A stretch of DNA of 53,865 bases from a virus. The position numbers and the translations under genes are program-made. Below the pieces are notes generated by a model. It did no database searches. It was not told where the DNA came from and was given only the letters and a program-made list of their open reading frames with translations. The DNA lies in the IMG/VR virus record IMGVR_UViG_3300032282_004842, positions 1 to 53,865 of that record. One strand, written 5' to 3'. Shown here piece after piece: positions 8,840 through 26,210 of this stretch (the first letter of the stretch is position 1; each line of letters begins with the position of its first letter).

Positions 8840-9152
8840 AATATAGGTTATACAATTCTACGCTTCTTTTATAATCTTGTAAAGATACAACCAAAGGAAA
8901 AGGTATTCTCATTAAAAAATTATCAGGAATTGTAAACTCAATGCTTCCGGCCTGTGGATTGGCCATTAAAATTAACCAACCAAATATTGGTGAATTATAA
9001 TAATCTTGTGAAAGTTTATCTAACCTATCCTTACCTCTTTTGTAAAAAACATATCTATCAGTTGTTTTAATAGGTATTTCTAATCCAGGAACAATCCTAA
9101 ATTTACCGTCATCTATGAAAAATTGGTATCTATCAAAATATTCTCTACTCAT
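8826..9152 (-). CDS. gp53: gp53-like baseplate wedge protein (LysM-like)
   Basis: 108 aa. The core RYVFYKRGKDRLDKLSQDYY followed by NSPIFGWLILMANPQ matches the T4 gp53 pattern (LANAIYGNPQLYWVLLMCN), a LysM-like fold in the baseplate wedge that joins inner wedge parts. T4 gp53 is longer (about 196 aa), so this is the short form common in other contractile tails and injection systems. Its ATG overlaps the stop of the 1645-aa gene (TAATG) and its end overlaps the 2042-aa hub-like gene, which places it in the middle of a baseplate operon. Confidence 0.8.
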   Translation of the reverse strand: MSREYFDRYQFFIDDGKFRIVPGLEIPIKTTDRYVFYKRGKDRLDKLSQDYYNSPIFGWLILMANPQAGSIEFTIPDNFLMRIPFPLVVSLQDYKRSVELYNLYYGEQ

Positions 9153-12100
9153 TATGTTTTTCTATAGTAATTAAGTTTATTATTCTCAGCCTCTAAATTA
9201 TCTGAATGTACTTTGTTTGATTCTTCAATAATTGTCGCGTCAGTTTCAACTGCGGTTACATTTATGTTAAATTTAATTTCTTTACTACTTTTTCTACTTT
9301 TAAAGGTTGTAAATTTAAATTTCTTTTTATCTGTTGGTTCGTTGAATTTCTCAACTCTTTTTAATAATTTTTTTATAGTTTTTTCATCATATACTTTCTC
9401 ATCCAATTTTAATAAACCACTATACGTTGCCGATGGTTTATTGTTAAAATAATTTTGAATTTCAGTATAATTTGTGAAAAGCAATTGTTTCATTATCTTT
9501 TCAAATTCTGGTTGTCCGATTGAGGGGTTAACTAAATTTATAGTACTAGTTAAATCCTCATACATTTTTGGTGTATTTGTTTCAATGTATTCAATACATG
9601 TTTTATATTCGTTGTATATAAAGTCAGATGTAAAACCAGATAATGTGGATGACGTTACTTTTGGTACTTCAACGTAACTGTCTTTTGCAAATTTTACAAT
9701 GAAATTAACACTATCAAGAGATTTAACTAAACTATTTCTGTTTGTTTCAATTTCTGTTAATAAATTTCCATTACTAATTTCTTCTAATACTGTTTTGGTT
9801 AAACCTGAAAAGAATGGTTTTAATATATTGTTATTCATGTCTGTTAGTTTTGACCCGGGTAGTTCCTTATCAAAACCTAACATTTCACATAAATAAGTTG
9901 ATGATGAATTATCAATAAAATCATATAATCCCGTTCTAAGACCTTTTAATAAGAACTCAGTTTCTGCACCTTTTTTTGTTAATCCAAATAACTGTAATGT
10001 TTTTCCCGGAGTTAAACTTGTTGAGGTATAAACATCATACTTATTTATCTCTCTATAATCAGGATGTAATAGTAATGTACCTATTTCAGTACCATATTTT
10101 GTAACAACATTATCATATGTGCTAACGTACTTGTCAAAATAGTTCTTGGTGTTTGTGAATACCTCCTCAACATTTTTTGTGTATATTAATTCTGTTCCAT
10201 TTTGTCCTGCGGCTATGTAACTTTCATTAATGTTATTTGTTTTGGCATTAGGGTCAGCACTTGGAGTTTTATAATTTGGATTTTGAAGTTTACGTAGGAA
10301 ATCATCAGTAAACTCTTTGGCATCCATACCATCAATTTTTTCGTTTGTCGATATTGACCTTTCATCGTACATTTCTGTATTTGCAAAAAAGTTTGATGAC
10401 AATGCGTTTTGTAGTCTTTCAACGGGTTTTGATAAACCTTGACCACCAATAAATGCAATTGAGCATGTTACCGATGCAATCATTGGTTGTACACCGATTC
10501 CTTCAGGATTTAAATCCCATACACCTTCATCGTAAGAAATATTAACATCTCTAATAATAATTTTAGAATGATAAAAATCTCCAATTCTTAAAACACAAAC
10601 AGGTGGTGGTCCAAAAGAGGTATTTCTTGCCGCAATATCTGTTTGGTCGGCAATTCCTTTAACAGGTATGGTATCACCAGGTTTTAAACATTGAAGCATG
10701 AATGTTAATCTACTATTTAACCCTTCAGGTGTTGTTGAATGAAATCCAGGGTGGAAGTATTTTAATTTTTCTTTTAAAGATTTAAATTGAAGTGGTGAAT
10801 CTTCTTCAAGTTTTTTAAAATAATGACACTCGGAAAGAGTTTTCATAATGATTCTCTTCATTGGGTCAATTGCTGGTTTTCTTGATGGTCTACCAGGTAC
10901 ATTTATTGTTACGGGTTTAACTGGTTCTGGTTTTGATGTTGATGTTGGTGGTGTTGGTTGTTTGGGTAATGGTGTTATTTTATAATTAGCACTAAATTTA
11001 GATTGTCTACAATAAAATGCGATAGGTGAATATTCTTTTAAACCTGTTATTTTTATAAATTCTTTACCTCTACACTTTTCTTCGGGTCCTTTTCCGTTAA
11101 GACCCTCACCATAATTTATACTATCAATTATTATTTTACCTTCATAATCATAACCTAAAGATTTAAATGTATATTCTTTTTTAACTTGAATTGCAGTACC
11201 AAGTATTATTTCCCTCAATTCGGGTATTCTAACTTTATCATTATCTGAATTAGTTTTGTCAACTGGGTTTATATCATTAATCCATTGTATAGTAGGGTTA
11301 GAACCTGGAGCTTTAATTTTATCAAATACATCTTGTATTATACTATGACTCCTTCTTAATGAAAGTTTCGCATTATAATCATCGGTTGCGGCAGATGAAC
11401 ATGACGATTCGATTGTTATTGTTATATCTTGGGCTGTCTTACCACTTAAATTGGTTTTTATTTCACTTAATGTTTTAATAAATGTGTCGTAATTTGTTTG
11501 AGCGTCCGTAAACCCCTTTGCTAATAAATTTTTTTGAATATCTACCTCACTATCTGTAAATGATACCACGGGTGGGGTTGCTCCATTTGTTTTTTTCGAA
11601 CCAAAAATATATTCGGTTTCCAATATAATTTGAGGGTCGGTTTTACCCGTCATTGTATGTAGAAGTGAGACGAGTGTATTTTGATAAGTTGTTGAACCTA
11701 AAGGGATATATGATTGGTATAAATCAGAATACTTACCGGATGATTCTAATTTAAGTTTTGAACCCGGTATATCATTTGCGAACTTTAATATAATGTTATC
11801 GGCACCACCTTTTCCACCGTTATCTCCCGAACCACTACCACTACCGTTATTAGGGTCAACATTAACGGGACTATCAACAGCCGGCATGTATTCCAATATC
11901 ATATCAGGTTCTTTATTGTTATTTAAAAACGATTGAATTAATGCAGCGTCACTAGAATCTAATTGTGTATATTTTCTAATTAAAGCATAAAAATCAAGTT
12001 CCTGACATCCAGCAAAAAATGCATTAATATAATTTTCAGTTTCTTCATCACTCATATTCTTAAAGTGTTCTCTAACCAATAAGTTTAAAATACTTGGGTG

Positions 12101-14089
12101 GTCGACAACAACTTTAAATGATAACTGTCCCGTTCTAGTTGCATCTTGATATGTATAAATCGGTTCGGGTCTACCTAAGAAGGTATTGTCCGTCCATCTT
12201 GCACTGTTGTTTTCACTAATTTTTAAATCATATGGTGGAAACCACATAACTCTACCACCATTATTTCCTCTTTCACAATATGGTAAATCGTTATAGGTAA
12301 ATCCAGGTGTGTTTGATGTTTTCCAAGCTAAATTTTCGATTGAAAACATATATTTTTGAGCGTAGAATCCATCTCCTTTTTTAATTATGTTTGTTGATAC
12401 CCCTTTGAAATTTTTATTACCGTCGGACATCGGTGCGATATTTAAATTCCACGGTTTACTTCCGCCTCCCATGACACTATCATCAAATTTTCTAATGTTT
12501 GAGGTTCTTTTCATAGTGTCAGAATAGTTCATATATGCCCTATCTTTTGTCCATACCCTACAGTACTCAACTCCTGTCTCTTCTCCCGAAAATTTATCAG
12601 TATACTTAATATTAGAACCTCTTGACATTACCGTTTCACCTTCCTTAAAGATTCTACTTGTTTGGTCAATAACATTACCCACATGTGTACGTGAGGCTCC
12701 ACCATCCTTTGGCATCGAATCCAAAAGTTGTTGTGTTTTATCTAAAATTGAATCAGGTCTAAATCCATATTTTGTAGATAAGGATTCTTGAAGATGACCC
12801 ATATCTTCTTTTCTTTTGTATGTATTTGTACCTGATTTATTGAGTCCTTCAAATGGAATGGTTATTTTACTTTGACCTAATTTATTTTTAGAGTTCTTAC
12901 TAATCCATGTTAAATTACTTCCAATGTTACCACCTTGTGAAATGTTTATTTTTCTTTCAAATAACGCAGCGGCGATAGGGTCAAACATTAAACTAAGATA
13001 GTAACTACTTTTAACTACATTGTCATTAAAATCGGACATTGTAAGTTTAACATCGTTACTTCTATCATCACCCATGTAAGATTGGCCTTTTGGTGCTTCA
13101 AGACCTAATATGTTTTTAACACCTTGTCCAACATTATCTGTAAATTGGAATAATTTAGATGATTGTTGTGACCTAGCTGTTGTTGTGTAATTAGGTGCAT
13201 ATTTTGAATAAGTTAGTAAATCGAATAATACTTGTTTAGGTCCTTGACCCATATGTTCAATAAACAAATCGGAAGGTTTTCTTCCTGGTTTTGGTCTTCT
13301 TTCTATACCAACCATTGAGCCAATCGCACCTGTGATATCTTGTAAGATAGCACCCTCTTGTGTTTTTGATTCAGGTCTATTTTGTATCGGATTTCTTGGG
13401 TTTGTTAAATAATCACCCGGTATTTCACTAAAAGGTAATTGTGTACCCGCAACTGTTTGTAAGAAATCAATACCCTTACCTATTAAATTTGACGATACTG
13501 TAATTCTATTATTAAATTCAATTAACGGTTCTCTACCTGTTATTAAATTTAAAGCGGTCGGTGTATTTCCATTTAAAGCATCGATGATTCTATCTCTACC
13601 AACAGTTGCCGCTTCTAAATTACTTTGTATTCTCGAAAAAACGGGACCTTGTTTATTGTCACGAATATTACTCGTAGCAAATTTCATTAACCTTGAATCA
13701 TTATCAAAGTTCTGACCTGTCATTATACTAATTAAATTAGTCTCACTTTTAATAAATGAATTAGGATAACCTTGAGCAACAACCCCATTATTTAATAAAG
13801 ATAATGTTGGTAATGATGTATTAATATACTCCTCAATTACGTTATTTGGTTGTGTGTATAGATTAACTGAATTTTGACCGTAATAGTTAGCCCAATTTGT
13901 TTTCACATCACCCGGGTCTATATTTGGCATATCCCTTAGTGTTTGTACTGTATAGTTCGCACTAGTAAAAGTCTGAGGTCCATTAGGTACATTAAGAGTT
14001 CTAGCGATTAAGTAATCTCTAAAACCGTCCTTAGAATCGGGTATTCCCGATTTGTTCCTACTGGTGTCAAAATCTAAATAAGTTGGCAT
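9152..14089 (-). CDS. Large tail/baseplate protein with OmpA-like module, 1645 aa
   Basis: 1645 aa. After an uncharacterised N-terminal half, residues about 610-720 contain a conserved-looking block (GGRVMWFPPYDLKISE, then TGQLSFKVVVDHPSIL). Residues about 885-925 (ITIESSCSSAATDDYN then AKLSLRRSHSI) fit the OmpA C-terminal peptidoglycan-binding pattern NxxLSxxRA. A Pro/Thr/Lys linker follows near residue 1050. Residues about 1176-1240 (RDVNISYDEGVWDLNPEGIG, GVQPMIASVTCSIAFIGGQG) look like a tail-tube or baseplate beta-domain. It starts an operon with gp53 and the hub-like gene, with TATTTATA 13 nt upstream. Its place after the tape measure suits gp48/gp54-type baseplate-tube roles, but that link is inference. 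Confidence 0.65.
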   Translation of the reverse strand: MPTYLDFDTSRNKSGIPDSKDGFRDYLIARTLNVPNGPQTFTSANYTVQTLRDMPNIDPGDVKTNWANYYGQNSVNLYTQPNNVIEEYINTSLPTLSLLNNGVVAQGYPNSFIKSETNLISIMTGQNFDNDSRLMKFATSNIRDNKQGPVFSRIQSNLEAATVGRDRIIDALNGNTPTALNLITGREPLIEFNNRITVSSNLIGKGIDFLQTVAGTQLPFSEIPGDYLTNPRNPIQNRPESKTQEGAILQDITGAIGSMVGIERRPKPGRKPSDLFIEHMGQGPKQVLFDLLTYSKYAPNYTTTARSQQSSKLFQFTDNVGQGVKNILGLEAPKGQSYMGDDRSNDVKLTMSDFNDNVVKSSYYLSLMFDPIAAALFERKINISQGGNIGSNLTWISKNSKNKLGQSKITIPFEGLNKSGTNTYKRKEDMGHLQESLSTKYGFRPDSILDKTQQLLDSMPKDGGASRTHVGNVIDQTSRIFKEGETVMSRGSNIKYTDKFSGEETGVEYCRVWTKDRAYMNYSDTMKRTSNIRKFDDSVMGGGSKPWNLNIAPMSDGNKNFKGVSTNIIKKGDGFYAQKYMFSIENLAWKTSNTPGFTYNDLPYCERGNNGGRVMWFPPYDLKISENNSARWTDNTFLGRPEPIYTYQDATRTGQLSFKVVVDHPSILNLLVREHFKNMSDEETENYINAFFAGCQELDFYALIRKYTQLDSSDAALIQSFLNNNKEPDMILEYMPAVDSPVNVDPNNGSGSGSGDNGGKGGADNIILKFANDIPGSKLKLESSGKYSDLYQSYIPLGSTTYQNTLVSLLHTMTGKTDPQIILETEYIFGSKKTNGATPPVVSFTDSEVDIQKNLLAKGFTDAQTNYDTFIKTLSEIKTNLSGKTAQDITITIESSCSSAATDDYNAKLSLRRSHSIIQDVFDKIKAPGSNPTIQWINDINPVDKTNSDNDKVRIPELREIILGTAIQVKKEYTFKSLGYDYEGKIIIDSINYGEGLNGKGPEEKCRGKEFIKITGLKEYSPIAFYCRQSKFSANYKITPLPKQPTPPTSTSKPEPVKPVTINVPGRPSRKPAIDPMKRIIMKTLSECHYFKKLEEDSPLQFKSLKEKLKYFHPGFHSTTPEGLNSRLTFMLQCLKPGDTIPVKGIADQTDIAARNTSFGPPPVCVLRIGDFYHSKIIIRDVNISYDEGVWDLNPEGIGVQPMIASVTCSIAFIGGQGLSKPVERLQNALSSNFFANTEMYDERSISTNEKIDGMDAKEFTDDFLRKLQNPNYKTPSADPNAKTNNINESYIAAGQNGTELIYTKNVEEVFTNTKNYFDKYVSTYDNVVTKYGTEIGTLLLHPDYREINKYDVYTSTSLTPGKTLQLFGLTKKGAETEFLLKGLRTGLYDFIDNSSSTYLCEMLGFDKELPGSKLTDMNNNILKPFFSGLTKTVLEEISNGNLLTEIETNRNSLVKSLDSVNFIVKFAKDSYVEVPKVTSSTLSGFTSDFIYNEYKTCIEYIETNTPKMYEDLTSTINLVNPSIGQPEFEKIMKQLLFTNYTEIQNYFNNKPSATYSGLLKLDEKVYDEKTIKKLLKRVEKFNEPTDKKKFKFTTFKSRKSSKEIKFNINVTAVETDATIIEESNKVHSDNLEAENNKLNYYRKT

Positions 14090-14127: not shown

Positions 14128-15990
14128 TTATCCAACATTTGTGTAATCTCTTTTATTAAGAGAATTCACAATGCTTTTAGCGAACATCGGGTGATTCTCT
14201 AGGTCGGCTCTCCATCTATCTTGATTAACATTAGATTCAAGGGATATTTTAACATCACTATACCCTGTACGGTTGTCAACAGAGGTTGGGGTTGCGGTTG
14301 GGGTTGGGGTTGGAAGTGATTGAGCTCTTATTTTTTTATTTTCATCATTAGCCATTTTGGTGGTTGTTGATTTAAGTTCATTTGTTACTTTTCCTGCCTC
14401 TCCTTCACCCTTTACAATATCCTTTAAAAATTTATTTGCAAAGGCAATATAGCTATCAACACCACCTCTTAAAGATGGGTTAGCTACCTTAGCAAATTGA
14501 ACTTTCATCATTGCAACTATTTCACTAACGTTTAGTGCCATTTTTTGTGTTTCAGTATATTGAGCCTTTGCAATATCCTCTGTCGACATTTTTTTGAATG
14601 TCTCCTGATTTTCCAATAATATCTTTTTTTGATTTTCAGTTAAATCACCTAACGCAATTTCTTTTAATCCTTGGAATTGGTCTGACATGTTTGATACATC
14701 AATTACCATTCTTCCACCTTTCATTCTAGAAATGTTGGTTAAAAATTCTTTTTGTTCTGGTTTTAAATCTAAACCTCTAGCCATTAATTCAGTTGCCGCA
14801 GCAGACCTTTCCGCTGAAGCAATTGCGATTTTACCTAAATCTTTAAAATCCATACCAAGTTCACCCGCTAATGCTCTAACTTTTCTTAAATTTACACCTG
14901 TAAGTTCAAATTTACCTTGTTCTTTATTATATGTTGCCAATGAACCGGCAACACCAATTAGTGCATCTTGTAATCCCTCAACATTATTTGTTGCCATATA
15001 CATAAGTTTTAATGGGTCATTGAAATCTCCAATTGCACCACCGATTGCCTGTAAATTAGCAGATAAATTTATTGCTTTATCAGGGTCAAAAACATCTTCG
15101 GCAATTTTAAAAATATCAGACATGTTCATTCTAAACTCAACTGATTTTTGAACCATTCGATTTAAACCTTCAACACCTTTAGAGAATCCATATTCATTAA
15201 TTCTACTAATATTGTCTGCCGTTTCTTTAACTACTTTTCTGGCGTTTAATCCTAACCTTAGTGATGATTCCCCACCTTTTTCAAATGAATCTAATGTATT
15301 TTCGGCGGATACACCAACCAATTCATATTGTCTGAAATAACTACCTAATGTTCCCATATCCTCAACGAACGCTCTTGAAACAGATGGTAATTTCCCCATC
15401 ACTTCAGTACTAAATGATGATAATCTACCAGTTTCTCTCATCATTTTAATTACAGTATCGGAAACATCTTCTAATTGATAACCAAAGGCGGCCGCGGGTT
15501 GTATGGTGTCCCTAATATTGTCCCTTAGAGCCTCTGACATATCTCCTGATATACTAAGTGCGGAATTTACATCATTATGTAATTTTACTTGGTCTTTTAA
15601 TATATCCTTTATACCATTTAATGAAGCTACAAGTCCGTTCTGTATTATTGTTTGAAAACCTTTACCGATAGAGCCTTCTTTACCAAAAAAACTCTTTACC
15701 ACATCCGATACCGTTTGAAGTATTACTGATGGTTCAATTATGGAAGGACCACTAGTATAACTTTTTACTGAGGAACTAAGATTTTGAACACTTAAAAAAT
15801 CCGGTGTGTTAATATTTTGTGTGTCAGTTGTGTTTGTTGTTGGTTCTTTTGAATTATATGTTGACCAATAAGAATTAAAATTATTCATTAAAGAAACATT
15901 GGATTTCACTTCTGTGCAGTCCATAAATTCTTTCTTATAGTCATTATAAGAAAGTCCTGATTTAATATCTTTAATAAGATTTGCGGCCAT
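14128..15990 (-). CDS. Tail tape measure protein
   Basis: 620 aa, mostly helical with many small residues. Features typical of phage tape measures: an internal helical repeat-like core (RLGLNARKVVKETADNISRI, NLSANLQAIGGAIGDFNDPL), the segment LAGELGMDFKDLGKIAIASA followed by ELMARGLDLKPEQKEF, and a C-terminal Thr/Pro stretch (PTPTPTATPT). A tape measure sets tail length and is ejected through the tube. At 620 aa it would specify a short to medium tail (T4 gp29 is 590 aa). Directly upstream lie the chaperone and its frameshift extension, the usual arrangement. TATTTATA ends only 3 nt before the ATG; the next in-frame ATG is at residue 23. Confidence 0.85.
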   Translation of the reverse strand: MAANLIKDIKSGLSYNDYKKEFMDCTEVKSNVSLMNNFNSYWSTYNSKEPTTNTTDTQNINTPDFLSVQNLSSSVKSYTSGPSIIEPSVILQTVSDVVKSFFGKEGSIGKGFQTIIQNGLVASLNGIKDILKDQVKLHNDVNSALSISGDMSEALRDNIRDTIQPAAAFGYQLEDVSDTVIKMMRETGRLSSFSTEVMGKLPSVSRAFVEDMGTLGSYFRQYELVGVSAENTLDSFEKGGESSLRLGLNARKVVKETADNISRINEYGFSKGVEGLNRMVQKSVEFRMNMSDIFKIAEDVFDPDKAINLSANLQAIGGAIGDFNDPLKLMYMATNNVEGLQDALIGVAGSLATYNKEQGKFELTGVNLRKVRALAGELGMDFKDLGKIAIASAERSAAATELMARGLDLKPEQKEFLTNISRMKGGRMVIDVSNMSDQFQGLKEIALGDLTENQKKILLENQETFKKMSTEDIAKAQYTETQKMALNVSEIVAMMKVQFAKVANPSLRGGVDSYIAFANKFLKDIVKGEGEAGKVTNELKSTTTKMANDENKKIRAQSLPTPTPTATPTSVDNRTGYSDVKISLESNVNQDRWRADLENHPMFAKSIVNSLNKRDYTNVG

Positions 15991-16003: not shown

Positions 16004-16160
16004 TTAAGTTTTATTTTCTATCTCAATAAGATAGTTTATATAATACCTTCTAATATAGACAGGCATTCCCATAATATCCCCATAAGAGAATCCTCTTTTT
16101 ACTAAGAATAGAATTTCGTCTAATTGACCTTTTTTATAATCCGTAGAAAGGGCGAAAAAA
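16004..16160 (-). CDS. Frameshift extension of the tail assembly chaperone
   Basis: In the +1 frame relative to the chaperone, an open stretch runs from the T6 run (16155-16160) to TAA 16006-16004. It encodes 49 residues after the shift, including KKGQLDEILFLVKRGFSYGD and MPVYIRRYYINYLIEIE. It has no ATG except one 22 codons from its end, so it is most likely made as a fusion. The site reads TTT TTT CGC: P-site tRNA-Phe can move from UUU to the overlapping UUC, and CGC is a rare codon here. A +1 shift skipping base 16154 would give a 292-aa fusion. The helical tail with a MP-x5-R pattern resembles small proteins that follow gp26/51 homologues in contractile injection systems. It ends 13 nt before the tape measure ATG. 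Confidence 0.65.
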
Positions 16161-16883
16161 CTCCACCCCGAACCCAATTTCAACTTGGGTTTTGTCTCCT
16201 GACGGGGTGGTTACTTCTCTTTTTAGGTCTAAACTTGGTTTGTTTTCTTTAATAAATTTTCTGAAATCTTGTGAATCTTTGATTGGTAATTTTTCAATGA
16301 AGTTTCTAATGTTCATCATATCTTTATTACCAGCTACGGTCTTAATCATCATTTCAAGTTGTTTTGTGACGATTGGTGGTACACCGTTCCCATTCCAACT
16401 TTTTTCAATTTCATCAATTTCTTTTTGTTGTTTTGGGGTTAAGAATTTAAATGTAATTTCAATGTTTGATTTTGGCATAACATACTGAAATTCTCCGTTT
16501 GCGTCCGGTTCAAGTTTAAATTCTCTAAATGATATTTCACTTAAATCAACAACGGCAGTAAATTCTTTATCTGTTTTTGTATCATTAAGATAGAACGTAT
16601 ATTCAGGACCGAAAGCCGTACTTCTTAAAAAGATTAAAACCGCCTGTTTATCTTCATCCGAAATTTCGTCAACAATAAAATCCCTATCTAAAATTTTTCT
16701 TTTTAAAAGTTCATCTATTACACTATTATTTTGAATTAAATTCTGAGCGGAAAGAATGTTTTCATCTGAAGCGGTTAGATAACCTACTCTAAGTGATTTC
16801 TTCTTATTTGCATAATGAATACCTCTTGAAGGTAATTCCACGACATCATACGCAATCGTGGGGTCAATTCTATATTCTTCCAT
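16134..16883 (-). CDS. gp26/gp51-family (T4_baseplate) tail assembly chaperone
   Basis: 249 aa. The N-terminal pattern YDVVELPSRGIHY, then VGYLTASDENILSAQNLI, NSVIDELLKRKI and VLIFLRSTAFGPEYTFY matches the T4 gp26/gp51 family (Pfam T4_baseplate), proteins needed for hub or tail assembly. Its place just before the tape measure matches the G/GT chaperone genes of other phages. The zero frame ends EFFRPFYGL, and a conserved +1 extension lies behind a UUU_CGC site (see the entry at 16004). The leader is A-rich. Upstream, a TATAAATA motif (the T4 form) ends 10 nt before the ATG. Confidence 0.78.
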   Translation of the reverse strand: MEEYRIDPTIAYDVVELPSRGIHYANKKKSLRVGYLTASDENILSAQNLIQNNSVIDELLKRKILDRDFIVDEISDEDKQAVLIFLRSTAFGPEYTFYLNDTKTDKEFTAVVDLSEISFREFKLEPDANGEFQYVMPKSNIEITFKFLTPKQQKEIDEIEKSWNGNGVPPIVTKQLEMMIKTVAGNKDMMNIRNFIEKLPIKDSQDFRKFIKENKPSLDLKREVTTPSGDKTQVEIGFGVEFFRPFYGL

Positions 16884-17092: not shown

Positions 17093-17581
17093 TCAATAAA
17101 CTTGGATACATCTATCCATTCTTAAACCAGCTTGGATAGTTGCTATATCATCTCTTGAGTAATCTAAATCTCCAAAGCTCAAGGTTGTTAAAAACGTTCC
17201 TTGAAGAATCCATTTTTCTACCACGACACCCGTTGGGTCCAACATTTCTAATTCAATATCTTTTTTATAACCAGCAGCATATCCCATACGACCTGTTACT
17301 GACTCCGCATGTAAACGAAACCATTCCATTAACGCTTGTGACGCTGAAGGACCAATAGGGTCTTTAAACGTTACTGACATTTCTTCCCACTCAAATCTAC
17401 CGGCAACATAAGTTGATGTATTGATGAACGGTATTGCTACTGAAGTAATTTTTGCTTTTGGTCTGGATGTTGCCGATACATACCATTCGTTGATACCTAA
17501 TGAAGAAGGAAATCTCAAGATGAATCGGTTAACTCTTTTCGGTTCGTATGGAACCGGCATTTTCATTAATAAATCTGCCAT
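17093..17581 (-). CDS. gp19: Tail tube protein gp19
   Basis: 162 aa, the usual length of T4 gp19 (163 aa). The pattern PKRVNRFILRFPSSLGINEW, then YVSATSRPK, SVTFKDPIGP and ALMEWFRLHAES is typical of the gp19 tube family, which stacks as hexameric rings to form the inner tail tube. It ends with TGA, showing that TGA is a true stop in this phage. It is a single-gene unit: TATTTATA lies 37 nt upstream and a strong terminator follows. This isolated, long-leader layout fits a highly expressed gene. Confidence 0.95.
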   Translation of the reverse strand: MADLLMKMPVPYEPKRVNRFILRFPSSLGINEWYVSATSRPKAKITSVAIPFINTSTYVAGRFEWEEMSVTFKDPIGPSASQALMEWFRLHAESVTGRMGYAAGYKKDIELEMLDPTGVVVEKWILQGTFLTTLSFGDLDYSRDDIATIQAGLRMDRCIQVY

Positions 17582-17895: not shown

Positions 17896-20733
17896 TTAAA
17901 TATTATCAAATGAAGCTCCTGTTGGTGTTATTACAAACTCAACATCAATAAATTCAAGTGAACGAGTAGGTTTAATAAATATTTTACCTCTCAATGTATT
18001 TGCATCTATATCAGCTGGGTCGTTAGAAACCGTTACACGGAAATCATATAAACCTCTTTCTCTCTTAATTGCGTCTAATATTGGATTTACTAATCTCAAG
18101 AACTCATTACGAACTTGTTCATCATTTTGTTCAAATATCAATCTAACGGCAACTGCTGAAATTAATTTTCTTGCTCTCAATAATAATCTTCTTACATTAA
18201 TTCTATCAAGCGCTGATTCTCTTACTTGAAGAGTTTTGTTACCCCAAATAATTGTGCCAGTATCAGAGAATGTGGCGATTGGGTTAATTCTATTTTTGTA
18301 AAGTTCATCTCTTTCATCAAGTGTTAATTTCTTAACAGCTTTAATTGATTTAACTAAACCTCTTGAATAACCAGCAACTGCGAACCAAGGAAAAGATACG
18401 TTATCTGTTAATGCGATATTTCTCACTACCTCACCTGTAGGTGGAATATAAAGTTGAGTTGCGTTATCTACATCTCTAATTTGAATCCAAGGGAAGTAAG
18501 TAGCTGAATAGTTTGTATCCATTGCCACACCGTCTAATGCTCCCACTACCTCATCAACAGTACTATAATTAGGTGAACCAATTATATAAAGTGAATCCGC
18601 TCTATCTCCTTCAACCATATCGATTGAGTAAGATGTTAATGAACTATGGTCGTAGAAATTAATACCAGGTGTAGCAAATATGTTGATATCAACCGCTTCA
18701 GGGTTACCGAAAGTATCAATACCTTTAACATATGAATAGTAGTCACTATTTCCTGATGTTGTACTGAATACACCACCGTTGTTTGTATTTCCTGAAACAT
18801 AAGTTTTCTTACCAAAGATATAACCGTCACCATAAGTTCTTACATTTCTGTAGATATCCCAACCATCGAAACCTCCACATAATGCAAATGTAAATTTACG
18901 GTAGTTGATATTTGTTAAGAAATTATCTGCTCCTGTTTGTCCTTCTAAATCATAAGGTGTGGTTAAGAATGTTGTACCTGTAATTGTTGACGCATTTGTT
19001 GATAAATGGAAACCTTTAGTAGTGTCGGCGGCAGCTTTACCTTTATATTTTAACAAATCATCATCATATCCTGTTTGAGTTGAGAATCCTAAACATACTT
19101 TTTTAACTTTATCACCTGAAGTTGTTATTGATGAACCGTCAGAATTATATCCTATAACATCACCAGCATTGTAGTATTCTGTTTTATACATAACAGAACC
19201 TATAGTACTACTACCAAAGTTTGAGTTACTTACAAATCCTTTAAAACCTGATGGGTACGCATCTGTTGGGTGATTACTGGCCATATTCAACATGATGTAT
19301 TTTGAATTTAATTCATATTCAGTATCCGATGTACCAACTTTCTTAGCAATATAACCCGGTACATCTGGATTCATTGAACACCTTGTGAATTTCTCAAGAA
19401 CAACCATATTGTCATCAGTATCATAGTAATCACGAACTAAAAAGTCAAATTCGTAAGTATCTAAATCAATGTTAACAACTGAAATTTTAAGTTGTGTGTT
19501 TGAATCCTCACCGTCAGAAATTGTTATTACTTCAAATAAATCTGCAACATTACCACCTCTAACTTCAGAAACAACAGTTGGTGACATTGGTGTATCCCAC
19601 TCTGTTAAGAAATTATTGGTTTCTGTATTGTAAACTTCAGTTAAACTGATACCTCTAATATAACCTTGTTGAAATGCTTGTAATAAATATTTTGGATATG
19701 ATTCGTAAACATAAATTGGAACATCTGTTTTTAATTTATCATATACATCAACACCCAAAACTTTTGTAACATATTTTGATGATGTTGTATCTAAACTACA
19801 AGTAAATGTTTTCGCTCCACTTGTAGAACCTGTTACATTAACTGTAAATTCAGATAATGGGTTAACCACTAAATCTGAACCAGAAATATTAAAGTTAGAA
19901 TTTGATGTAACTTCTAAATTTAAAGTTTGTCCCGCATATGAACCTCTTGACCTGAAAGCGGCAACAACTTGACCGTCGTAATCACTATATGTGGTTGCGT
20001 TGTACGTGTATCTTGTCACATTAAATCGACTTGTTCCACTACTGTAAACAAATAGGTATGAATATACTTCAGTACCTGCAGTATTAACTAATGTATTATA
20101 CCACTCTTTTGAGTTGTAATTATTTGCGTTATCCAAACCTGTTAATGGTGAGATAACTTCAGTTCCGGTTAAACCCGATGTCCCTGAATATGGTACATTA
20201 CCCAAAACAAACCAATTATTATTGTTACTTGAAGTGTTACCACTAAAGTTTGTAACAATGTAGTCAGTAATAGTGTTACCGTCATAAGCTTTCTTATCAG
20301 ATAAGAAAGTGTAGAAAGTACTACCTGTAATACCTGTTGTTGAAGGGATTGTAGTTCCGGTGGTAGTTCCACTTAACGAACCAACCTCAACACCTCCGAT
20401 TGTTTGAATCGCGAATGTTTTAACTGGTTTATATCCTGTTAAACCAAGAATTCTTGTTACAAATAATTGATTAGATTCTTGAAGATATGCTTTTGCCACA
20501 TAAGGTAATTCATATTTTGGATTATTATTGCCGTCTTTTTCCGGTGATGTACCTCCAAAATATAATTTAAATGCGTCGAAATCTGTTATTAATATTGGTT
20601 CGAAAGCGGGACCTCTTAAAGTTTCACCCACTAACCCTAATGTGCTCACCCCAACACTCTGTGCTACGAATGATAAATCTTTTTCCGATGTATACACACC
20701 TGGAGATACAAACACTTTATTTGAATTTGCCAT
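17896..20733 (-). CDS. gp18: Tail sheath protein gp18
   Basis: 945 aa, far longer than T4 gp18 (659 aa). The N-terminus FVSPGVYTSEKDLSFVAQSV and ITDFDAFKLYFGG are the typical sheath start. The C-terminal domain (GLVKSIKAVKKLTLDERDEL, NRINPIATF, GTIIWGNKTLQ, NVRRLLLRARKLI) is the conserved part that links sheath subunits. The middle (residues about 120-450) is rich in Ser, Thr, Gly and Tyr and accounts for the extra length; it probably forms outward-facing domains. The sheath contracts and drives the tube through the envelope. TATTTATA lies 39 nt upstream with an A-rich leader, fitting strong late expression. Confidence 0.95.
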   Translation of the reverse strand: MANSNKVFVSPGVYTSEKDLSFVAQSVGVSTLGLVGETLRGPAFEPILITDFDAFKLYFGGTSPEKDGNNNPKYELPYVAKAYLQESNQLFVTRILGLTGYKPVKTFAIQTIGGVEVGSLSGTTTGTTIPSTTGITGSTFYTFLSDKKAYDGNTITDYIVTNFSGNTSSNNNNWFVLGNVPYSGTSGLTGTEVISPLTGLDNANNYNSKEWYNTLVNTAGTEVYSYLFVYSSGTSRFNVTRYTYNATTYSDYDGQVVAAFRSRGSYAGQTLNLEVTSNSNFNISGSDLVVNPLSEFTVNVTGSTSGAKTFTCSLDTTSSKYVTKVLGVDVYDKLKTDVPIYVYESYPKYLLQAFQQGYIRGISLTEVYNTETNNFLTEWDTPMSPTVVSEVRGGNVADLFEVITISDGEDSNTQLKISVVNIDLDTYEFDFLVRDYYDTDDNMVVLEKFTRCSMNPDVPGYIAKKVGTSDTEYELNSKYIMLNMASNHPTDAYPSGFKGFVSNSNFGSSTIGSVMYKTEYYNAGDVIGYNSDGSSITTSGDKVKKVCLGFSTQTGYDDDLLKYKGKAAADTTKGFHLSTNASTITGTTFLTTPYDLEGQTGADNFLTNINYRKFTFALCGGFDGWDIYRNVRTYGDGYIFGKKTYVSGNTNNGGVFSTTSGNSDYYSYVKGIDTFGNPEAVDINIFATPGINFYDHSSLTSYSIDMVEGDRADSLYIIGSPNYSTVDEVVGALDGVAMDTNYSATYFPWIQIRDVDNATQLYIPPTGEVVRNIALTDNVSFPWFAVAGYSRGLVKSIKAVKKLTLDERDELYKNRINPIATFSDTGTIIWGNKTLQVRESALDRINVRRLLLRARKLISAVAVRLIFEQNDEQVRNEFLRLVNPILDAIKRERGLYDFRVTVSNDPADIDANTLRGKIFIKPTRSLEFIDVEFVITPTGASFDNI

Positions 20734-23321: not shown

Positions 23322-26210
23322 ATGCAAAGTACCATACCTGAAATAGAGGCGAGGGACATATTGACAAAGTATGAGGGTTTTAATAATTATTTATTAGAAT
23401 TCAAAAAAAAGTTCTTAGAAGTTAAGAATTTTAAGTTAACTCGTCCACAAGCTGAATATGTGATTAAGTACCACGAAGTAGTACCTCGTGTTGCAAAAAA
23501 GTATATCAACGTTGCATCAAATTTTGGTGAAAAACTGATGGAAGATAAACATCTTCCAAAAGTACCAGAAAAAATATGGTGTGAAAAATTATTATGTGAA
23601 AGTGATAAAGCTTATCATATTTGGGGTAGGGTAAATGAAAGTGAGAAAAACTACGCAATGTGGTTACCCAAATCATCCATAATTCAAGAAGAAAAAAAAT
23701 TAAATAGAGAAGTCGATTATTCACCATATTCAAAGAGACCACCAATGGAACATCAAAAAGTTGCCATTGAAAAATTATTGGCAAATGATAGGTATATCCT
23801 TGCAGATGATATGGGCCTCGGTAAAGCAGAATTTGTTGAAAATAAAGTATTTACACCTTATGGTAGAAAAAGAATTGGTGACTTAAAAATTGGTGATGAA
23901 GTTATAGGTAGTGATGGTAAAAAATGTAATGTTCAAGGTGTCTATCCTCAAGGAATTAAAGATTTATATAGAGTAACATTTAACGATGGTGTTTCTGTCT
24001 TAGTCTGTAAAGAACATTTGTTTTCTGTTAGGGCACGAAGTTTTGGTCATAATACTAAAAATTCTCGTAATAAAAAAGAAATTGTTTTATCTATTGGTCA
24101 AATGATTGATGAAGAATTATTTTTAGAAGTCTCAGGTGAGAAAAATAATATTAATAGAAATTATAAATTTAAAACTTATTTTAAGGAAAAAGGGGGTAAT
24201 AGTAAGTGGCAAATACCTATTGTTAAACCAATTGAATTTAATTCTAACGAATTGGAATTAAACCCTTATTTATTAGGGTTGATTTTAGGTGATGGGGGTA
24301 TAACACAAAAAGGTGTTTCTTTTACAACTGAGGATGTTGAAATTGTTAATTATATTAAACCTATTTTACCTGAAAATTCACAAATTACGGAAAATAAAAA
24401 TTCAAAATATGGTTATAGATTAACAAAAAAAACAGGACATACTAATCCGATAATTCAAATTTTAAAAGAATTAAATTTGATGGGTTGCGGTTCGCATAAT
24501 AAATTTATTCCAACCAAATATAAATACTCATCAATTAATGATAGATTAGAAATTTTAAAAGGTTTAATGGATACTGATGGGACTTGTTCTATCGGTAAAA
24601 AAGGAAATTTTGAAGGGACTGAATTTTCAACAGTATCAGAAAGATTGTGTGATGATGTTATTGAAATTGTTCATAGTTTAGGTGGTATTGCCAGAAAAAA
24701 AAGTAGAACAACTAACTATACATATAAGGGTGAAAAAAAAGAAGGTAAAAAATCTTATAGAGTTAATATAAAATTACCATCAGGGATGAATCCATTTAAA
24801 CTTAAAAGAAAATACGATTTATACAATACTCCCGAAAAATATAAGGTTGGTAGATATATTAAAGATATTAAATTTGAGGGTAATGGTGAGGCCATTTGTA
24901 TTTCAGTAGATTCTCCTGATAAATTGTATGTAACTGAACACGCAATTGTTACTCATAATACAACATCCGCAATCATTGCGTCCATGGAAAGTGGAGCAAA
25001 AAAAGTTCTTATCATTTGTCCAGCATCATTAAAGATTAACTGGCAAAGGGAGATTGAAAACTATTCTGATAAAAAAGTTTTAATTGTTGAGGGTAAAAAG
25101 TGGGGGTCTACTTTTGATTATTACATCATAAATTACGATATAATTAAAAATTACCATTCTATGGAATCGGTTGCTTTAGGTGAAGAAATACGACAACCAA
25201 TACTAAAAGAAAAATTTGATTTAGTTATCATCGATGAGGCCCACATGATATCTAACCCAACGGCAAACAGAACCAAATTAATTAATGATATAGTTGAAAA
25301 GATACCTAAAGTTTGGTTATTATCAGGAACACCAATGACATCAAGACCAATAAATTATTATAATATTCTTAAAATTGTTAATTCCCCTATTGCATTAAAT
25401 TGGCAGACGTATGTAAAAAGATACTGCGGTGGATATCAATTTACTGTTAATGGTAAAAAGATTTGGAATACGGGTGGCGCAACTAATTTAGACGAACTAA
25501 GAGAAAGGACTAAAAATATTGTTCTTAGAAGAATGAAAACGGATATATTAGATTTACCAGATAAAATCATCACACCTATATTTTTAGATTTGAAAAGTAC
25601 TTTCTATGATGAAGAATTGGAAGACTTCATGAGGATTACTAATGAGAATAAAAATAAAGAATCGTTAAGTATTACTATTAATCGACTAATGAAGGTTAGA
25701 CAGGTTATATCATATGAAAAGGTGGAGTACACTTCGGAAATCATTGATAGATGTTTGGAACAGGGTAAAAAGGTTATTGTATTCACAAACTTCACAATGA
25801 CACTTGATATGTTACACGAAAAATACAAAAAGAATTCGGTCGTTCTTGATGGTAGAATGTCAAAAGAAAAAAGACAACAGAGTGTTGATAGATTTCAGAG
25901 TGAAGATAAGGTAAAGATTTTTATTTCAAATATTATTGCCGGTGGAGTGGGAATTACATTAACTGAAGCTGAGGTTGTAATTATGAATGACTTATCATTT
26001 GTTCCAGCTCACCATAGTCAAGCGGAAGATAGGGCGTTTAGATACGGACAAAAGAAAAATGTAATGGTTTATTACCCGATATTTGAAAATACGATGGAAA
26101 AAATTGTATATAATATTTTAAATAAGAAAAAGAACATTATTGACCAAGTAATGGGTGATGGGGATTTTTCAGAAAGTTTTGCAACATCTTTACTTAAAGA
26201 GTTGGTTTAA
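23322..26210 (+). CDS. SNF2-family (UvsW/SMARCAL1-like) helicase interrupted by an intein
   Basis: 962 aa including a 378-aa intein; the mature enzyme would have 584 aa. Walker A is rebuilt by splicing to DDMGLGK|TTSAII. Further motifs are Ia (KVLIICPASLKINW), DEAH (VIIDEAH, about residue 635), III (VWLLSGTPMTSRP), V (IFISNIIAGGVGI) and VI (QAEDRAFRYGQ, about 901-911). The last one is the SNF2 form QAEDRxxRxGQ. In T4, UvsW remodels branched DNA; SMARCAL1-like proteins anneal strands. It is transcribed divergently from the neck operon with only 32 nt between starts. Start choice: ATG 23322, the first ATG after an A/T-rich leader. Confidence 0.9.
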   Translation: MQSTIPEIEARDILTKYEGFNNYLLEFKKKFLEVKNFKLTRPQAEYVIKYHEVVPRVAKKYINVASNFGEKLMEDKHLPKVPEKIWCEKLLCESDKAYHIWGRVNESEKNYAMWLPKSSIIQEEKKLNREVDYSPYSKRPPMEHQKVAIEKLLANDRYILADDMGLGKAEFVENKVFTPYGRKRIGDLKIGDEVIGSDGKKCNVQGVYPQGIKDLYRVTFNDGVSVLVCKEHLFSVRARSFGHNTKNSRNKKEIVLSIGQMIDEELFLEVSGEKNNINRNYKFKTYFKEKGGNSKWQIPIVKPIEFNSNELELNPYLLGLILGDGGITQKGVSFTTEDVEIVNYIKPILPENSQITENKNSKYGYRLTKKTGHTNPIIQILKELNLMGCGSHNKFIPTKYKYSSINDRLEILKGLMDTDGTCSIGKKGNFEGTEFSTVSERLCDDVIEIVHSLGGIARKKSRTTNYTYKGEKKEGKKSYRVNIKLPSGMNPFKLKRKYDLYNTPEKYKVGRYIKDIKFEGNGEAICISVDSPDKLYVTEHAIVTHNTTSAIIASMESGAKKVLIICPASLKINWQREIENYSDKKVLIVEGKKWGSTFDYYIINYDIIKNYHSMESVALGEEIRQPILKEKFDLVIIDEAHMISNPTANRTKLINDIVEKIPKVWLLSGTPMTSRPINYYNILKIVNSPIALNWQTYVKRYCGGYQFTVNGKKIWNTGGATNLDELRERTKNIVLRRMKTDILDLPDKIITPIFLDLKSTFYDEELEDFMRITNENKNKESLSITINRLMKVRQVISYEKVEYTSEIIDRCLEQGKKVIVFTNFTMTLDMLHEKYKKNSVVLDGRMSKEKRQQSVDRFQSEDKVKIFISNIIAGGVGITLTEAEVVIMNDLSFVPAHHSQAEDRAFRYGQKKNVMVYYPIFENTMEKIVYNILNKKKNIIDQVMGDGDFSESFATSLLKELV
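23826..24959 (+). other. Intein with LAGLIDADG homing endonuclease, N-terminal Ala
   Basis: In-frame insertion of 378 aa starting AEFVENKVFTPYGRKRIGDL after GLGK and ending IVTHN before TTSAI. Blocks visible: A (GDEVIGSDG), B (GVSVLVCKEHLFSV, with Cys for the usual Thr in TxxH), two LAGLIDADG motifs (LLGLILGDGGI about 317-327; LKGLMDTDG about 411-419), and F/G (DKLYVTEHAIVTHN). Removal leaves a perfect GxGKTT. Residue 1 is Ala rather than Cys or Ser, and the +1 residue is Thr; Ala1 inteins such as KlbA splice by a non-standard route. Insertion at the P-loop is a known intein hot spot. Confidence 0.92.

Follow-up and report, generated by a model that had tools for sequence, protein, structure and literature searches.

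Comparative evidence for a programmed +1 frameshift in the tail assembly chaperone gene of a T4-like phage lineage

The stretch of DNA analysed here, referred to as the window, is virus record IMGVR_UViG_3300032282_004842 of IMG/VR (positions 1 to 53,865; 53,865 nucleotides), and the gene of interest is a minus-strand gene resembling T4 gp26 and gp51. Comparison with relatives indicates, with a probability that we put at about 0.9, that programmed +1 ribosomal frameshifting in this gene yields the long form of a tail assembly chaperone (TAC), TAC-NC. As the original prediction, made from the window alone, had it, the zero-frame protein (16883..16134 including the stop codon, 249 aa) ends in ...EFFRPFYGL*. 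A +1 shift on the second TTT gives TTC GCC CTT... and the product ...GVEFF-ALSTDYKKGQLDEILFLVKRGFSYGDIMGMPVYIRRYYINYLIEIENKT*, with 49 codons after the Phe. The predicted coordinates of this extension (TAC-C) were also correct, as was its spacing from the next gene, a large open reading frame (ORF) whose ATG at 15990 lies 13 nt past the extension's end. Sequence comparison establishes that the extension is coded in the +1 frame, that it is conserved there, that another start is lacking, and that it is homologous to gp51 and to the TAC-C of −1-type phages; precisely which codon slips, that ribosomes pause, how efficiently they shift and that the products act as chaperones are what we infer.

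In the mechanism that we propose, most ribosomes would terminate at the zero-frame stop and so yield the short TAC-N of 249 aa. A minority of them would pause at UUU UUU CGC while the Arg codon CGC, hardly used otherwise, waits in the A site. The P-site tRNA on the second UUU would then re-pair +1 to UUC, and reading would continue into the 49-codon extension. By analogy with gpG and gpGT of phage lambda, the short and long forms together would coat the tape measure and link it to the tube subunit.

A scan of viral contigs returned 76 relatives, and wider searches with the addition of a TAC-C profile brought the set to 210 distinct +1 genes, 47 of which make up the window clade. Alignment of the extension in relatives had been proposed as a check; the extension is kept in the +1 frame in all 210 genes, which excludes chance. 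Loss of conservation, or an ATG-started extension in relatives, had been named as counting against a frameshift, and an ATG start was seen in only two contigs, considered below. In every close relative spanning the junction, a C comes after TTT TTT (or TTC TTT) and the extension stays in the +1 frame. The frame of coding constraint switches at the shift site: column entropy over the three codon positions is 0.53/0.35/0.99 in the zero frame ahead of the site and 0.57/0.34/1.12 in the +1 frame past it, the third position being the most variable in both cases. Between these regions lies a dual-coded overlap in which third positions of both frames are constrained, and +1-frame coding conservation starts at the slip site itself (FFAL/FFGL), within the zero-frame gene. 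In the annotated records of immuto, SP-15, Mel-JY01 and LIS04, the extension is either unannotated or called a separate hypothetical protein, an annotation that the present reading would correct.

The P-site codon is UUU in 174 of the 210 genes, CUU in 31 and CUA in 5. After UUU or CUU (205/210) a pyrimidine (U or C) always comes next, which gives tRNA-Phe or tRNA-Leu a UUU or UUC to re-pair with one base on; in the five CUA genes UUU_C precedes and could serve as the re-pairing site instead. The A-site codons across the set are UGG, CGC, CGU, CGA, UAC, CAG and UUC. The immuto clade uses CUU_U (CUU_UGG), and Bacteroidota-type members have an invariant CCU codon directly after the A-site codon. 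Within the window clade, 45 of the 47 genes have TTT TTT CGN, the others having TTC TTT CGC and TTT TTT CAG, and re-pairing to UUC is possible in every one. Re-pairing of tRNA-Phe from UUU to UUC while a rare CGN codon waits, as originally suggested, fits the site variants across relatives. CGC occupies the slip site in about two thirds of the window-clade genes and is found at 0 of 11010 codons elsewhere in these genes; in eight long window genes it accounts for 1 of 5086 codons, bearing out its earlier description as rare. This near-absence elsewhere suggests that CGC is decoded slowly at the A site.

If re-initiation or termination-coupled initiation instead produced TAC-C as a separate small protein, a start codon of its own would be expected to serve it. 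Such a start is seen in the ATG-started TAC-C of contigs L303 and L308 and in the Ackermannviridae, where an ATG overlaps the stop (TAATG), and in the window a TTG at 16183 precedes the extension. However, 53 of the 210 distinct +1 genes offer no ATG, GTG or TTG upstream of the extension or within its first 15 codons, and in 12 of the 47 window-clade genes CTG, ATT, ATC and ATA are absent upstream too. Several close relatives have a +1-frame stop just two codons ahead of the shift site, and the beginning of +1 conservation inside the zero-frame gene also argues against separate initiation, which we regard as highly unlikely. The original claim of no usable ATG stands: in the window, none lies in frame ahead of the extension. 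Close relatives lack any start there, and the window itself has only the TTG. The six-T homopolymer at the junction might also raise the suspicion of an assembly or sequencing error in what is truly one uninterrupted frame, but the identical frame relation is seen in 210 distinct genes that were assembled independently, and immuto, SP-15, LIS04, RM378 and Mel-JY01, all recorded as isolates, share it. These relatives refute an error, leaving it a negligible probability.

A −2 slip would lead into the extension's frame too; gpGT of phage Mu is made by such a shift (PMC3498833), and UUU_UUU sites do allow −2 re-pairing to UUU. Such a slip would add one residue (EFFFALS..., three Phe), while the trans-frame peptide expected from a +1 shift is ...GVEFFALSTDYK, with two Phe. 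In the CUU, CUA and UUC_UUU variants (50/210), however, a −2 slip would leave a Leu tRNA on UUC or a Phe tRNA on UCU. The poor −2 pairing in those genes, where +1 re-pairing works, argues against a −2 shift, which is accordingly very unlikely. Slippage of RNA polymerase on the T-run, with the resulting mixed mRNAs read in a fused frame, could be imagined for the 160 of 210 genes with runs of 6–8 T. In 50 of 210 genes (e.g. TTTCTTTGG and TTCTTTTGG) the runs are only 3 or 4 T long, which is too short for polymerase slippage, and the +1 extension is unchanged; this argues against transcriptional slippage and makes it extremely unlikely. Programmed +1 frameshifting is the reading that we prefer.

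The identity of both domains was addressed with profile searches and structure prediction. The zero-frame protein is matched by PF12322 (T4_baseplate, the T4 gp26 family; 29.9 bits, E 5.5e-7, cut-off 24.5) and by phrog_150 (E 8.4e-10, 39.5 bits), the latter match reaching profile position 233. Fusing the extension to it raises the phrog_150 score from 39.5 to 47.1 bits, with positions 17–281 of 282 aligned, and T4 gp51 spans the profile end to end as well (3–281). Aligned with hhalign, +1-type TAC-C matches −1-type TAC-C and the gp51 C-terminus with 96.5% probability (E 1e-9). By these sequence criteria, the extension is a homologue of the T4 gp51 C-terminal domain and of the −1-frame domain in cyanophage and proteobacterial T4-like phages. 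The zero-frame domain folded alone gave a predicted structure with a predicted local distance difference test (pLDDT) score of 88; this predicted fold strongly matches predicted T4-like gp26 folds and the SP-15 homologue, and weakly matches the HK97 tail chaperone 2ob9 (probability 0.38, E 1.5). A sequence search of solved structures returned Rab proteins as its sole matches, which we judged spurious. The best explanation of the gene, and one in keeping with its original assignment as gp26/51-like, is that it encodes the tail assembly chaperone pair (TAC-N short, TAC-NC long) of a T4-like myophage.

In a tree of 72 chaperone N-domains, a fully supported branch parts classical T4-like phages, which use −1 or separate genes, from a lineage that holds all +1 members. 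The latter contains the window clade, Flavobacterium phage immuto, Mel-JY01, RM378, LR756508, the Bacillota-labelled SP-15, LIS04 and GXN1. A homologous extension in the −1 frame, again at the FF junction, is present in P-SSM2, S-PM2, Cr30, phiM12, phiW-14, HTVC008M, pf16, S-SSM7, Marzo and KVP40, and in −1-type members the junction usually follows a T-run permitting a canonical tandem slip. Genes 26 and 51 are separate in T4, and the Ackermannviridae appear to use their overlapping ATG rather than a shift. Atu_ph07 and contig L292 are −1 members that, with LR756511, lack firm placement at the base of the +1 clade. L292, which a search with the GXN1 chaperone retrieved, has a −1-frame extension at GAT TTT TTC, and GXN1 has a +1 extension at TTC TTT CGT. 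The listed host of GXN1, Streptococcus agalactiae with pond water as the source, should be treated with care. Named bacterial contigs carrying relatives are mostly Bacteroidota, which suggests a Bacteroidota host for the window phage. On balance, we favor a history in which a +1 signal, consisting of YUU_Y, a slow sense codon (CGN, UGG, UAC) and, in Bacteroidota-type members, the invariant CCU, is ancestral to one large T4-like lineage (Bacteroidota-associated phages together with Bacillus SP-15, Listeria LIS04 and Rhodothermus RM378) and stands at the junction where the sister lineage shifts −1. The two-form chaperone would then have outlasted a change in shift direction, and phages would have acquired UUU_CGN independently of influenza virus and amalgaviruses.

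Some observations weigh against programmed +1 frameshifting. No stable RNA structure beyond that of shuffled sequences was detected downstream of the site (folding z-scores 0.32 and 0.43). A GGGG upstream of the site is invariant in the window clade and absent in other clades; its distance of 8 nt to the P-site codon differs from the spacing in RF2. As there is no downstream structure and GGGG is not common to the other clades, no stimulator beyond the A-site codon was identified. Conservation of CGC could in part reflect the Ala codon (GCC) that it provides in the +1 frame, not its rarity. L303 and L308, the only two contigs with an ATG-started extension, are divergent and nested in the +1 lineage of the tree, apparently reflecting secondary loss of the frameshift in favor of an ATG-started ORF after the stop. 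Finally, in gut Bacteroidota relatives L281–L285, L290 and L291, which the N-domain tree places as sister to the window clade, no TAC-C was seen beside TAC-N in any frame. The GGGG could be a candidate stimulator in the window clade. It lies in GGG GTN GAR (window 16161–16175, minus strand) and is kept there although GGG is a minor Gly codon.

Frameshifting in tail chaperone genes is textbook recoding and is nearly always described as −1. Vladimirov, Gautam and Davidson reportedly identified gp26/gp51 as tail chaperones of T4-like phages in 2022, with frameshifting in several groups. A passage of PMC12846349 cites this study (Vladimirov 2022) for polyT −1 signals, and a passage of PMC10885494 likewise cites it (Virology 566:9–15). 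Frameshifting of the G-T type is described as conserved except in T4, and the G-T counterpart of HSTV-2, a haloarchaeal myovirus, has been called "very likely +1" (PMC5009743). The original remark that a +1 site is unusual in such chaperones, with no described case known, must be qualified by HSTV-2, in which +1 is likewise proposed for a myovirus tail chaperone; this is an archaeal virus, and the likeness is one of proposed shift direction. The T4-like gp26/gp51 chaperones share with the window the family (PF12322/phrog_150), the two-domain N and NC architecture and a position near the tape measure, but the classical phages examined have the extension in the −1 frame, and T4 has separate genes 26 and 51, whereas the window clade would shift +1. 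Lambda gpG/gpGT, other −1 systems and the −2 system of Mu also have a short and a long chaperone from one gene upstream of the tape measure, with a 3′ extension reached by frameshifting. They belong to a different protein family; the window has no X_XXY_YYZ tandem slip, and its extension is in the +1 frame, as in the entire window clade.

At the level of the site, UUU_CGN is a recognised +1 motif of influenza A PA-X (UCC_UUU_CGU) and amalgaviruses (PMC3498833, PMC5052127), and sequences based on UUU_C were predicted by Firth et al. to form a class of +1 stimulators (PMC3498833). The window site matches this motif, in line with the original comparison with PA-X. The window has the features of this class, with P-site UUU followed by C and a +1 ORF that is open and conserved without an independent start; P-site UUU_C, A-site CGN and the lack of obvious downstream structure are common to both. 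The viral sites differ in that they serve eukaryotic ribosomes in unrelated genes, and the E-site codon of PA-X is UCC, that of the window UUU. The CUU_U re-pairing of the immuto clade resembles that of RF2 (prfB, CUU_UGA), which differs from this chaperone family in its autoregulatory rather than structural use; no matching Shine-Dalgarno spacing was identified in the chaperone genes, and the window has a sense codon, not a stop, in the A site (UUU_CGC). Chaperone frameshifting is thus known in kind, a proposed +1 case included. The literature searched, whose scope did not take in the text of Vladimirov 2022, yielded no +1 signal that holds across a clade of T4-like phages and matches UUU_CGN; this signal appears to be new, as do opposite shift directions at one homologous junction. 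More than 200 natural +1 site variants, set against −1 relatives that share the homologous junction, form a rare data set, with which one can ask what drives a bacterial ribosome to shift forward, and how the direction of a shift changes in evolution without loss of the product ratio.

The features of the locus are collected in Table 1. The gene order is sheath, tube, chaperone and then a large ORF, in agreement with the G/GT-like order originally noted, with the tape measure assigned by position only. This ORF (620 aa) occupies the place of the annotated tape measures in immuto and LIS04, and had no family match of its own in profile searches (Pfam-type, phrog). It is adjoined by a 1645-aa ORF (window 9152–14089, minus strand) with a weak OmpA-like stretch.

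Table 1. Features of the chaperone locus and its neighbours in the window.
Feature	Position	Strand	Basis or detail
TAC-N, zero-frame short tail assembly chaperone, 249 aa, T4 gp26/gp51-like	16137..16883	-	PF12322, phrog_150, predicted fold
Zero-frame stop TAA	16134..16136	-	Sequence
TAC-C, 49-codon +1-frame extension	16007..16153	-	Conservation, profile match
Stop codon of the extension	16004..16006	-	Sequence
Dual-coded overlap GAG TTT TTT CGC CCT TTC TAC GGA TTA TAA	16134..16163	-	Nucleotides nearly invariant across the clade; third positions of either frame under constraint
Putative shift site TTT TTT CGC C	16151..16160	-	P site, second TTT (16157-16155), would re-pair to TTC; A site, CGC (16154-16152)
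Next gene, 620 aa, presumed tape measure protein	14128..15990	-	Position only
Tail tube protein, gp19-like, upstream neighbour	17093..17581	-	phrog_4542, E 5e-23
Tail sheath protein, upstream	17896..20733	-	phrog_23, E 1e-56

Elsewhere in the window, an in-frame intein bearing a LAGLIDADG domain interrupts an SNF2-type helicase (23322–26210, plus strand). The intein is inserted in the Walker A motif of the helicase (GLGK/AEFVENK...VTHN/TTS, with slashes at the intein boundaries), and its first residue looks like Ala, not Cys or Ser.
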